Origin: Aliidiomarina taiwanensis | GTDB lineage: Bacteria > Pseudomonadota > Gammaproteobacteria > Enterobacterales > Alteromonadaceae | DNA: 64,000 nt | Reading direction: 5' to 3' | NCBI RefSeq assembly: GCF_003987015.1 | Contig: NZ_PIPQ01000001.1 | Coordinates: forward strand, 372,001 to 436,000 | Part shown: one piece after another, positions 21,142 through 24,908 of the stretch | How the letters are laid out: each line of letters begins with the position of its first letter | Position numbering within the stretch: position 1 is the first letter of the stretch | Notes under the pieces: generated by a model | What the model saw: only the letters and a program-made list of their open reading frames with translations | Database searches by the model: none | What the model was told of the DNA's origin: nothing | Program-made: the position numbers and the translations under genes

Positions 21142-21918
21142 TTAGCCTAATCGTGTAGGAATAGAGTGTTTTGCTAAAAATTCTTTAAGGGCATGAATGT
21201 CAACGGTTTGCTTGTGAAACACACTGGCAGCAAGAGCGCCATCCACCTGACTGTGGTTGAAGACATCAACAAAGTCTTGCATACAGCCAGCGCCACCTGA
21301 AGCGATAAGAGGAACTTGACAGGCCTGACGCATGCGACTTAGTTGTTTCATATCGTAGCCGTTGCGAACACCGTCTTGGTTCATACAGTTCAACACAACT
21401 TCGCCGGCACCTAATGCCTGCACCTGCTCAAGCCATTCTAGGGTGGTGTAAGGAGTTTGGCTGGTTGCGCTTGGGTCGCCCGTAAGTTGGTACACAACAT
21501 ATTCATTTGTGTCCGGGTCGTAAAAACTGTCAATACCCACTACCACACACTGTTTTCCAAATGCATCATGGAGCTCCTTTATCAATTCAGGGCGTGCTAG
21601 AGCAGGACTGTTAATGCTTACCTTGTCTGCACCTGCTGCCAACACGCGTGCAGCGTCTTCAACGGAACCTATGCCTCCAGCAACACAGAAAGGAATATCA
21701 ATAACCCGGGCAACCGCCTCAACCCATTGAGTGTCAATAAGCCGCTGCTCGACGCTGGCACTTATTTCGTAAAAAACCAATTCGTCGGCACCGGCGTGGC
21801 TATAGGCTTGAGCAAGGCTAAGAATATCGCCTACAACCTCATGGCCTTTAAATTGGACACCTTTTACGACCTGACCATTCTTAACGTCTAAACAGGGAAT
21901 AATTCGTTTGGTTAGCAT
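21142..21918 (-). CDS. hisF: Imidazole glycerol phosphate synthase, cyclase subunit HisF
   Basis: Closes the imidazole ring: with HisH-derived ammonia it converts PRFAR to imidazole glycerol phosphate and AICAR. The 258-residue TIM barrel has the catalytic aspartates D11 ([12 protein letters not shown]) and D130 (VVGIDSF), and the phosphate-binding glycine segments CVAGGIGS and ASGGAG. It lies 15 bases after hisH, and the pair is downstream of a histidine leader peptide. No hisA is beside it, which is unusual since hisH-hisA-hisF is the common order. The [11 protein letters not shown] segment is slightly unlike typical HisF (NGGR..TG) and could indicate a divergent or paralogous enzyme. Confidence 0.88.
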
Positions 21919-21933
21919 GGATGTACACCTCGA

Positions 21934-22524
21934 TTATGGTTGCCAGTTAATGAAGTTTTGCAATAAGCGCGCACCCACGTGTGCGCTTCGCTCTGGGTGA
22001 AACTGCATCCCCGCAACATTATCTTTGGCCACAATGGCAGAAAAGCGCTCACCATAGTGACACTGAGCCAGTGTTGCTGTATTGGTTGAGTGCGCAAAGC
22101 TATGAACAAAATACAGGTGTTCTTGGGGGCGTAGCCCTTGGGTTAGGGGGTGTTCTTGTTGCAACTGAATGGTATTCCAACCCATATGAGGCGAGGGAAG
22201 TGGACCGACGTCGAGGGCTTGAACTTGACCTGGAATTTTACCCAAGCAAGACACCTGACCTTCTGCAGAGTGTTCACATAAAAGCTGCATTCCTAAACAA
22301 ATCCCTAAGAGAGGGCGTTCATAATCTAAGAGGGTTTGCTGCCAACCTAAGGCTTGTAGTCTTTCTATCGCTATAGCCGCATGGCCAACACCCGGCAGAA
22401 TGGCCCGGTCGTAACGAGCTAATTGTTCTGGTGCAGTGATGACAGCTGGGCTCTGTCCTAGTCGCTCGAAGGCAAAGCGCACAGAATTAATATTGGCGCA
22501 ACCGGTATTAATTATCGCAAGCAT
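21934..22524 (-). CDS. hisH: Imidazole glycerol phosphate synthase, glutamine amidotransferase subunit HisH
   Basis: Class I glutaminase that feeds ammonia to HisF. The 196-residue protein has the nucleophile C76 in GICLGMQLL and the H176/E178 pair in MQFHPERS, a complete triad. GGGGG lies just before the ATG. It is the first enzyme gene after the hisL leader and attenuator and is followed by hisF. HisH-HisF paralogues also occur in surface-polysaccharide clusters, but the histidine-codon leader argues for a true histidine biosynthesis role. Confidence 0.92.
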   Translation of the reverse strand: MLAIINTGCANINSVRFAFERLGQSPAVITAPEQLARYDRAILPGVGHAAIAIERLQALGWQQTLLDYERPLLGICLGMQLLCEHSAEGQVSCLGKIPGQVQALDVGPLPSPHMGWNTIQLQQEHPLTQGLRPQEHLYFVHSFAHSTNTATLAQCHYGERFSAIVAKDNVAGMQFHPERSAHVGARLLQNFINWQP

Positions 22525-22603
22525 AAGTTCCCCCGCGTGTCTTATAAAGCAAGGGAAGGGTTAAGGGGTAACACTTCATAAAACTGTCCTTTTCCAATTG
22601 TGT

Positions 22604-22626
22604 AAAAACCTGAGCGGAGCCTCAGG
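22604..22626 (-). terminator. Histidine operon attenuator (terminator hairpin)
   Basis: On the minus strand CCTGAG-GCTCCG-CTCAGG followed by five U residues forms a terminator between the leader peptide and hisH. Upstream, two mutually exclusive hairpins (22,670-22,707 with 9 bp and 22,656-22,681 with 7 bp, sharing 22,675-22,678) could couple ribosome position to terminator formation, as in classical attenuators. Confidence 0.82.
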
Positions 22627-22700
22627 GCGGAAAAGAAAGAAGATGTTGACTCGCCAGAGGTTCCGTTTAGGAATAACCTCTCAGCGAAAAACCTGACAGG

Positions 22701-22751
22701 TTATTCCGGTGAATGGTGGTGATGATGTACGGCGGTCTGGTTTAGCGTCAT
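22701..22751 (-). CDS. hisL: his operon leader peptide with five consecutive His codons
   Basis: A 16-residue ORF, MTLNQTAVHHHHHSPE, with codons CAT CAT CAC CAC CAT in a row. A weak AGG lies about 10 bases before the ATG. It is followed by alternative hairpins and an intrinsic terminator ahead of hisH, the arrangement of histidine attenuators in enteric bacteria, where ribosome stalling at His codons under shortage of charged tRNA-His allows read-through. It is too short for ordinary gene finders. Here it precedes hisH directly, not hisG. Confidence 0.9.
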   Translation of the reverse strand: MTLNQTAVHHHHHSPE

Positions 22752-22801
22752 ATATGAACCTGATATTGGTCATTGCTTGCCCTCATAAAAACATACATAG
22801 G

Positions 22802-22829
22802 GTTATAAGAGCAAGCATTTTCTGTCCAA
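22802..22829 (-). promoter_or_regulatory. Candidate his promoter
   Basis: On the minus strand TTGGAC (22,824-22,829) and TATAAC (22,802-22,807) are separated by 16 bases and lie about 50 bases before the hisL start, just after the recD stop. An inverted repeat TGCTTGC / GCAAGCA (22,774-22,780 and 22,811-22,817) flanks the likely transcription start. The -35 match is poor. Confidence 0.45.
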
Positions 22830-22841
22830 TATACGACGGAT

Positions 22842-24908
22842 TTAATTTTGCAAGCCACTGGCGCGCTGTACGCGTCGGGTAAGGGTGTTGGCCAGAACCT
22901 GCGTATCGCTATACAACAGGGTAAAAGCCTCACTGGAGCGGGTGATGCCCGTATACAGTAGTTCTTTGGTTAACACCGGCGTGTCGTGACTAGGAAGCAC
23001 TAAGGCTGTGTGCGTAAACTCGGAGCCTTGGGACTTGTGCACTGTCATCGCAAACACAGTTTCCACGCCTTGCAAGCGACTTGGTAGCACCCAACGGATG
23101 CCCCCCTGACCGTCAGGGAAAGCGACACGCAGCACTTGCGACTCAGGCCACTCAAAGCATATTCCAATGTCCCCGTTCATCAGTTTTAAACTGTAGTCGT
23201 TGCGGGTAACTAATACAGGGCGACCTGGGTACCATGCGGGGTTGCCCTGGGGCAAGAGGCCACGCAAGGAGGGGATAGTTTTAAGCGCATTCAACACCAG
23301 TATATTGAGTGCGTCCACCCCCCAAGGTCCCGTACGGACAGGTGTCAGTAATTGAAATTGGCTATGGGCTTTGAATACAGCCAAGGCCCATGGGTCAAGT
23401 GACTCCCGGGCATCTGTGCTTGGGCGCAGTTTGATAAGCTCGGTCAAATAGGTTTGGTAGCCTTGTTTTACTAAGTTCTTTAACGGGCTGAAAGGGCCTT
23501 CAGCCGCCGCTTTTGACGATTGAAATTCGGGTTTTTGCAGGCGAATGAGTTCTAAGTTGTGCTGAGGGCTGACAGCAGAGCCAGTACGGGCATACTGTGT
23601 ACAGATAGCTTGTATGTCTGCGGGCGTTGCTGTCCCCGAGTTCACACTGTCCGCTAAAGCACCAATACCAGGGTATTTAGCAAAGCGATAGCTGTGGCGC
23701 AACATGGTGGTGGCTTGTGCTAAGGAAGAGCCTGAAGCATTGAGCATTCCTTCGGGAATGCTTTGTTGAGTGACCTGCTGTAACCACTGAAGTGTTGCCG
23801 ATGTATAGTTTCCTTGGGCTGCGCTACGGCAGAAGTCACCTAGTACTGAGCCCGCCTCTACGGAGGCAAGCTGGTCCTTGTCACCTAGTAAGATCAATCG
23901 CGTATGGGGCATGAGGGCGTCAAATAGTTTGGCCAGCATTTCCACGTCAACCATAGAAGCTTCGTCAATGACCACCAAGTCAGCAGGTAAAGGTTGCTTT
24001 GCATGATGGCGAAAATGACGCGAGCCAGGACGACTGCCAAGTAAGCGGTGCAGGGTGGTGACATCGGTTGGAATATCCTGGCGACAGTCGGCCAAGTCAC
24101 CGCTCAATTTGACCTGCTCAATTCCTTTGGTTAATGACTCACTGAGCCTGGCTGCTGCTTTTCCTGTTGGTGCGGCCAGACGAATGTTTAAAGGGGGTCG
24201 TTTCTGTGATTGCTGTAGTCCTTGGAGAAGCGCTAACAGGCGTATGACGGTTGTCGTTTTCCCTGTGCCAGGACCGCCCGTAATAATGCCAAACCCGGTT
24301 CGCGACGCTAAGGCGCATGCTATTTTTTGCCAGTCGTTTGCGGGCTCTTCAGCAGTGACATTTTTAGGAGGGAAAAGCTGGGTTAAAATACGGGCCGTGT
24401 CTTCTTTCGACCATTCGTGTTGGTTCTGTAAACGTTGCTGTATACCCGTTTGGATTTGTTGCTCGTATACCCAATAGCGGCGTAAATACAGCAAAGGCGT
24501 TTGTTCGCTCCCGGCTAAAACCAAGGGGCTTGAACTGTCACTTGGAGACTGGCCATGACGTGCGTCCGTCACCGCATTGCTCGCTAAGAGAGCAGCAACC
24601 CATTGCTGCAGTTGCCAGCCTTGCAGGCAGTTGCTGAGTTCTTCGGCAACTGGACATTCGTTGTGTTGCGGGAGTGCCTGTTGCGCCTCGTCTTCACTCA
24701 GTAGGGCTGCCGGATCGGCTAACACACTAGCCAAGTCAAGACAGACATGACCATGGCCATTGCGCTCGCTTAATAAGGCCGTGGCAAGCAAGAGCTCAGG
24801 ACTTGGACTGCCAGCATGCTCAGCTATAAAACGAGTCAGAGCTATGTCCAAGCTGCGTAATGCGCCTCGTGCTGCCCAGCTCTCTAATTGGTTTAATACA
24901 TCATTCAT
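22842..24908 (-). CDS. recD: Exodeoxyribonuclease V subunit RecD
   Basis: The 5'-3' helicase subunit of RecBCD, acting in double-strand break repair and degradation of linear DNA. The 688-residue SF1B protein has Walker A GGPGTGKTTT (211-220), motif II VIDEASMVD, LLGDKDQLASVEAG (motif III) and the C-terminal TVHKSQGSEF (motif V region). The N-terminal RecB-interaction domain is present. It overlaps recB by 4 bases, giving a recC-recB-recD operon. Length is a little above the E. coli protein. Confidence 0.95.
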   Translation of the reverse strand: MNDVLNQLESWAARGALRSLDIALTRFIAEHAGSPSPELLLATALLSERNGHGHVCLDLASVLADPAALLSEDEAQQALPQHNECPVAEELSNCLQGWQLQQWVAALLASNAVTDARHGQSPSDSSSPLVLAGSEQTPLLYLRRYWVYEQQIQTGIQQRLQNQHEWSKEDTARILTQLFPPKNVTAEEPANDWQKIACALASRTGFGIITGGPGTGKTTTVIRLLALLQGLQQSQKRPPLNIRLAAPTGKAAARLSESLTKGIEQVKLSGDLADCRQDIPTDVTTLHRLLGSRPGSRHFRHHAKQPLPADLVVIDEASMVDVEMLAKLFDALMPHTRLILLGDKDQLASVEAGSVLGDFCRSAAQGNYTSATLQWLQQVTQQSIPEGMLNASGSSLAQATTMLRHSYRFAKYPGIGALADSVNSGTATPADIQAICTQYARTGSAVSPQHNLELIRLQKPEFQSSKAAAEGPFSPLKNLVKQGYQTYLTELIKLRPSTDARESLDPWALAVFKAHSQFQLLTPVRTGPWGVDALNILVLNALKTIPSLRGLLPQGNPAWYPGRPVLVTRNDYSLKLMNGDIGICFEWPESQVLRVAFPDGQGGIRWVLPSRLQGVETVFAMTVHKSQGSEFTHTALVLPSHDTPVLTKELLYTGITRSSEAFTLLYSDTQVLANTLTRRVQRASGLQN

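Follow-up and report, generated by a model that had tools for sequence, protein, structure and literature searches.

In enteric bacteria, histidine biosynthesis is regulated by the hisL leader, in which a short ORF containing a His-codon run is followed by hairpins that exclude one another and by a terminator ahead of the first structural gene, and the position of the ribosome acts as the sensor. We analyzed a 64,000-nt stretch of the Aliidiomarina taiwanensis genome (the window), which carries a leader of this kind before hisH and hisF. The window leader resembles enteric hisL (RF00514) in its His-run ORF, exclusive hairpins, terminator and predicted sensing by ribosome position, but it precedes hisH of a two-gene unit and scores 16.5 bits with the RF00514 His_leader covariance model, below the gathering score of 49, which leaves it outside that Rfam entry; at the gathering score, Rfam gave no match within the window. 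The leader of the Pseudoalteromonas hisGDCBHAF-IE operon encodes a homologous leader peptide followed by hairpins and a terminator, and the hisH and hisF genes behind the two leaders group together. However, the Pseudoalteromonas leader stands before hisG and a full operon, whereas in the window hisGDCB and hisA are gone.

Other described systems share single aspects of this arrangement. In Bacteroidota and Chlorobiota, a second pair, hisH2-hisF2, lies outside the main operon and is bicistronic in one species, but the passages of that study on the pair describe no attenuator and do not say that the main operons lack hisH (PMC8305728). The terms hisFI and hisF-hisI are absent from PMC8305728. 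In Corynebacterium glutamicum, HisF seems to function in vivo in the absence of HisH, probably on ammonia (PMC3896937); that species has hisH, and the gene was removed by laboratory deletion (an unpublished result mentioned in that paper), whereas no hisH was found in two genomes discussed below, G014 and G368. The five his fusions given in the conclusion of a 2007 survey (PMC1963479) do not include HisF-HisIE, and a phrase search of the open-licence literature for a hisF-hisIE fusion returned two unrelated papers. Nor did searches of the open-licence literature reveal a trimmed foreign hisHF with an attenuator beside a hisH-less, leader-bearing native operon; hisHb, as used in the relevant part of one paper, is an aminotransferase and unrelated. 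The attenuator itself is of a known kind; what is new is the patched pathway with its two attenuators, together with the naturally HisH-less operons.

All features of the leader lie on the minus strand. The leader peptide ORF, MTLNQTAVHHHHHSPE (22701..22751), starts at 22751 and has 16 codons, a TAA stop at 22703-22701 and five His codons in a row (CAT CAT CAC CAC CAT), and reading 22751-22701 bore out the initial annotation, which had placed such an ORF before hisH-hisF. Folding with ribosome masks located helix 1:2 (22670..22707), which overlaps the leader stop codon, helix 2:3 (22650..22688) and the antiterminator helix 3:4 (22615..22665), which takes up the 5' arm of the terminator. The intrinsic terminator hairpin and U-run (22604..22626) were identified by a terminator scan and by folding: a terminator-like stem at 22626-22609 is followed by TTTTT to 22604 and precedes hisH, and the 601 scanned bases contained 2 terminator-like sites against a shuffle mean of 0.6. 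A 23-codon ORF (22508..22579) lies between the terminator and hisH, overlaps the hisH start by 17 nt and, compared by eye, occupies the position of the hisG start in the Pseudoalteromonas operon; it is probably a relic of the hisG translation start. A consensus scan of 22400-23000 detected no sigma-70-like promoter. On its own, a run of four His codons is common in this genome (37 matches versus 20 for a reversed control pattern), so the case rests on the combination of features and on homology. The combination found is that of a histidine attenuator: a his gene preceded by a leader ORF that has consecutive His codons, a U-run terminator before the first structural gene and, by computation only, mutually exclusive antiterminator and terminator structures chosen by ribosome position.

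Folding of the minus-strand RNA had been proposed as a check on the initial annotation. The 176-nt stretch 22600-22775 gave a more stable fold than every one of 200 dinucleotide shuffles (z = -3.75), and ribosome masks produced a switch. In this model, the RNA under and upstream of the ribosome was masked and the ribosome was placed at successive positions of the leader. With the ribosome at His codons 1-3, the probability of the antiterminator core was 0.98-0.99 and that of the terminator 0.01-0.02, with helix 1:2 formed; at His codon 5 the values were 0.90 and 0.10; and at the stop codon helix 2:3 reached 0.83 and the terminator 0.97, in keeping with the exclusive hairpins and terminator claimed earlier. 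In the ribosome-free ensemble the antiterminator core outweighed the terminator (0.86 versus 0.13), yet the minimum-energy structure holds the terminator. Scarcity of charged tRNA-His would stall the ribosome at the His run and allow helix 1:2 to form, segment 3 would then pair with the 5' arm of the terminator, and the polymerase would enter hisHF. When histidine is plentiful, the ribosome would reach the stop codon, helix 2:3 would form and the terminator would stop transcription. By this computed switch, the window leader is predicted to be a ribosome-mediated histidine attenuator, and a corresponding response would be expected in vivo.

The structure was compared across the window leader and 48 Pseudoalteromonas leaders, which are 48 of 54 distinct leaders after the omission of one Dyella row and of five leaders that have an alternative start further upstream. 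Across these 49 sequences, the pairs of helix 1:2 were kept in 99.1% of cells and those of helix 2:3 in 93.7%, with one pair of helix 2:3 showing two-sided changes in 21 of the 49; helix 3:4 was paired in 90.3% of cells and had five pairs with two-sided changes. Taken as a whole, the antitermination structure paired in 95.1% of cells, with two-sided changes in 6 pairs versus 1.1 in shuffles. The termination structure paired in 86.3% of cells and had 3 such pairs versus 1.8 in shuffles, a count that 47 of 500 shuffles equalled, so the covariation support is weaker there. The 3' arm of the terminator was paired in 67% of cells, a low count that is partly an alignment effect because the arm is shifted in the alignment; in the window this arm is unlike that of Pseudoalteromonas but retains its pairing. 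By equilibrium folding, the terminator swing exceeded 0.5 in 28 of 47 scored leaders, the window among them, and was absent in 19 (47 of the 49 leaders were scored; L121 gave zero in all states).

Downstream of the leader on the same strand lie hisH (21934..22524; equivalog TIGR01855) and a second, Pseudoalteromonas-type cyclase subunit gene, hisF2 (21142..21918; equivalog TIGR00735), a second copy in that the main operon has its own hisF, fused to hisIE. Both proteins exceed the NCBIfam equivalog cut-offs for the subunits of IGP synthase, HisH with 204.9 bits (cut-off 105.4) and HisF with 326.2 bits (cut-off 294.55). Window HisF2 also retains D11, D130 and K19, the last of which we take to be among the functional residues of HisF. 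D11 and D130 are described as catalytic in the part of PMC5919458 that deals with them. HisH and HisF2 of the window are most likely a predicted glutamine-dependent IGP synthase supplied to the host, in which they would have a rescue role. Directly downstream of hisF2 is a gene for an isochorismatase-family hydrolase (PF00857; 20555-21094, minus strand). Elsewhere in the genome, the other match above the HisH model cut-off is a gene of surface-sugar type on contig C11, where, with names assigned by eye, HisF-like and HisH-like genes lie beside an amidotransferase-looking gene in a cluster of surface polysaccharide type (L036:2319-4863).

Phylogenetic analysis placed the window genes with Pseudoalteromonas. 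HisF2 fell in a clade with 14 Pseudoalteromonas rows (support 100/100; 72-row tree, from 122 rows) and HisH in a clade with 13 (support 100/100; 61-row tree). The end branches are long (0.61 for HisF2 and 0.60 for HisH), so the donor may belong elsewhere than among the Pseudoalteromonas sampled, and the transfer is not necessarily a recent one. When named genomes were scanned with patterns from the window HisH protein, a choice that favours close kin, 68 of the best 80 of 219 candidates were Pseudoalteromonas, with 56-73% identity, and the other 12 had at most 49%; identity to 15 HisH proteins of its own genus was 37-49%. The leader alone matched 67 of the 68 Pseudoalteromonas loci (blastn, E <= 1e-5), the best long match of the leader region being 88% over 142 nt. 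In 67 of 68 loci hisG is preceded by a leader ORF in which three or more His codons follow one another, the 68th (L125) beginning inside hisD at a contig end, and these leaders align with the window leader along its entire length. The gene order, where the contig shows it, is hisG-D-C-B-H-A-F-IE, with hisH between hisB and hisA; three loci, L115, L125 and L177, depart from this in having no intact hisF beside hisA, and a fourth, L124, breaks off within hisA. The median match to Pseudoalteromonas was 82% for leader DNA (67 loci, partial lengths), 68% for hisH (68 loci) and 70% for hisF (64 loci), and the stretch upstream of the leader also resembles Pseudoalteromonas, by eye only.

Within the family, leader DNA was detected in 34 of 395 genomes: the window genome itself, 29 of genus g18, 1 of genus g43 and 3 of genus g45. 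None of the 16 other own-genus genomes had a match, and the window region gave no blastn match at E <= 1e-3 to own-genus loci. Since leader, HisH and HisF all group with Pseudoalteromonas, the unit is read as a foreign his operon cut down to leader-hisH-hisF. The transferred Pseudoalteromonas-type operon would have shed hisG, D, C, B and A while the leader, the attenuator, hisH and hisF stayed. The anatomy of the segment and its foreign origin are apparent at the sequence level. Two earlier proposals agree with this, namely that a his attenuator here governs a two-gene hisHF unit, the same kind of leader preceding the full operon in Pseudoalteromonas, and that an operon was reduced to hisHF with its regulator kept, the leader, HisH and HisF all being of Pseudoalteromonas type. 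It is suggested that an attenuator can travel with an operon fragment and stay plausible after most of the operon has been deleted. A conserved recD neighbourhood was considered and dropped: none of four window genes (hisH, hisF2, the isochorismatase gene and a helicase gene) lies beside recD in the 16 other genus genomes (about 1500 nt per locus), which leaves no clear example of an empty site.

A search of the rest of the genome for the other his genes and a second His leader, also proposed with the initial annotation, recovered both. The main operon, on contig C23, reads hisG-D-C-B-A-F-IE, without hisH, and is preceded by its own leader ORF, MQPINISQRHHHRHTHVRSLLI, and a terminator-like hairpin. 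This agrees with the earlier suggestion of a split his regulon in which each piece has its own His leader. The native leader scored 22.7 bits with Rfam His_leader, and its terminator stayed at probability 1.0 whichever of the five masks was applied, so no native switch is seen in equilibrium folding. Upstream of hisG, a leader ORF with at least three His codons was present in 16 of 16 genus loci examined, the host's own included (the count is without G012, whose contig starts in hisC). Two unlinked attenuators of different ancestry would thus control one pathway through the same tRNA. One hisA was found above the cut-off in the window genome, the weaker matches being the fusion, hisF2 and a third HisF-like gene on C11.

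The loss of hisH and the fusion of hisF to hisIE in the host main operon are evident from the assembled DNA. Of 17 genus genomes, 15 have hisH in its place between hisB and hisA and a free-standing hisF (257-263 aa). In the other two, the window genome (G000) and G014, hisA comes next after hisB, and hisF and hisIE form one in-frame fusion (467 aa in G000, 454 aa in G014). The two fusions are sisters inside the genus (support 100/100). Among the full-length matches listed from the 395 family genomes, only these two are fusions without a stop; 196 genomes matched at E <= 1e-100, so fusions of lower similarity could escape, and G148 (open frame 521) lay outside the translation check.

Family genomes with no HisH match at E <= 1e-12 numbered 9 of 395, or 4 of the 369 of good quality. 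HisF is present in four of the nine, G014 and G368 (good quality) and G111 and G211 (less complete), and G343 and G363 (good quality) have neither a HisH nor a HisF match and are possibly histidine auxotrophs. G014, of the same genus, shares the hisH loss and fusion with the window genome; it has no acquired hisHF and no match to the foreign leader. Its five GATase-domain matches (open frames of 408, 534, 551, 561 and 228 aa) all lie outside the his operon, and the 228-aa frame, of the size of a TrpG/PabA-type or HisH-type protein, fails the HisH model. Assembly loss could account for the absence of hisH from G014 (about 50 contigs), though the operon is unbroken. In G368, of another genus, the operon (L225 = G368:C12:73500-84500) reads hisG-D-C-B-A-F-IE with a short gap at the place of hisH and no fusion, which indicates a separate loss of hisH there.

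HisF sequences from these genomes were compared at 115 near-invariant positions. The rows used were the window, 17 of the genus and those of 104 out of 110 loci tried (matches over 240 positions), with L063-L065 being duplicates of genus rows. Departures numbered 16 in the G000 fusion, 9 in the G014 fusion, 5 in G368 and 1 in window HisF2, while the other 119 rows had a median of 0, with two distant rows at 32 and 37 and one at 5. The higher counts in G000, G014 and G368 may reflect relaxed constraint. All four of these proteins retain D11, D130 and K19. The G000 fusion carries D98A, and D is found at this position in the 119 others, window HisF2, G014 and G368; by alignment, the numbering agrees with T. 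maritima HisF up to there. D98 of HisF moves to contact HisH in the active complex, according to the passage of PMC8115485 on this residue. The substitution fits a G000 fused HisF that may still cyclise and no longer needs HisH, but the presence of D98 in HisF of the HisH-less G014 and G368 counts against this reading.

We think it likely that the window genome acquired a trimmed hisHF with its predicted attenuator after the loss of its own hisH. The loss would have left the fused HisF working on free ammonia, as it appears to do now in G014, and the foreign hisHF would then have restored a glutamine-dependent IGP synthase. An ammonia-fed HisF is feasible given that a C. glutamicum hisH deletion grows in minimal medium (an unpublished result cited in PMC3896937) and that high ammonium rescues a Klebsiella hisH mutant (PMC5919458), each as given in the relevant passage of the source. 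The reverse order, in which the ancestor of G000 and G014 gained hisHF, lost its redundant native hisH and G014 later dropped the foreign copy, is rather unlikely. The loss and fusion are common to both genomes, as it would predict, and redundancy offers an easy route to hisH loss; but this order needs three events rather than two, no foreign leader match was found in G014, and the case of G368, where hisH is gone and the whole genome gave no HisH match, shows that the gene is sometimes lost without being rescued. A wider reading of the loss-first order, that histidine biosynthesis without HisH occurs naturally in at least two lineages (G000/G014 and G368) through an ammonia-fed HisF, and that the window genome was repaired while its fused HisF drifted away from binding HisH (D98A), is one we favour slightly. 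Natural pathways without a detected HisH make the question of free-ammonia use by HisF directly testable.

The remaining alternatives concern what the window unit is. The main operon lacks hisH exactly at its expected place, as it would if the window hisHF were the native pair moved out by ordinary operon splitting, but Pseudoalteromonas is where HisH, HisF and the leader all group, and the main operon still contains a native-type hisF in the form of the fusion; contradicted by the HisF and HisH trees, relocation is scarcely credible. It is very improbable that HisH-HisF2 serves another pathway, such as surface-sugar amidation, as some HisH/HisF paralogues do. The paralogous pair on C11 beside the amidotransferase-looking gene gives this idea a precedent in the same genome, and the C11 HisH-like protein is also above the HisH cut-off, so the cut-off alone does not decide. 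The window proteins, however, score above the equivalog cut-offs for the histidine pathway and are encoded downstream of a His-codon leader, and the C11 protein branches elsewhere in the HisH tree; a surface-sugar identity was rejected on the equivalog scores and the HisH tree. Decay of the leader into a relic, with hisHF expressed constitutively or by read-through, would agree with the divergent 3' arm of the window terminator and with the empty consensus promoter scan, but we regard it as improbable: the His run, the stop position and the helices are kept, and the leader DNA is closer to Pseudoalteromonas (82%) than hisH (68%) or hisF (70%) is.

Several features of the Pseudoalteromonas operons were observed in passing. 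In L125 (4521-9771) and L177 (7314-12328), a probable mobilizable element interrupts hisF after ten codons at an identical site; about 2.6 kb of the two elements is 98% identical, and that of L177 encodes an integrase-like protein below the Pfam cut-off, a MobA-type relaxase and an exonuclease. Among plasmid records these elements had no match; they suggest hisF as an integration site. In L115 (7300-7420), from a metagenome-assembled genome, a terminator-like stretch rather than hisF follows hisA, by eye. Lastly, in eight PLSDB Pseudoalteromonas records the his leader is carried on replicons of 0.68-0.91 Mb, placing the his operon of those strains on a second large replicon.
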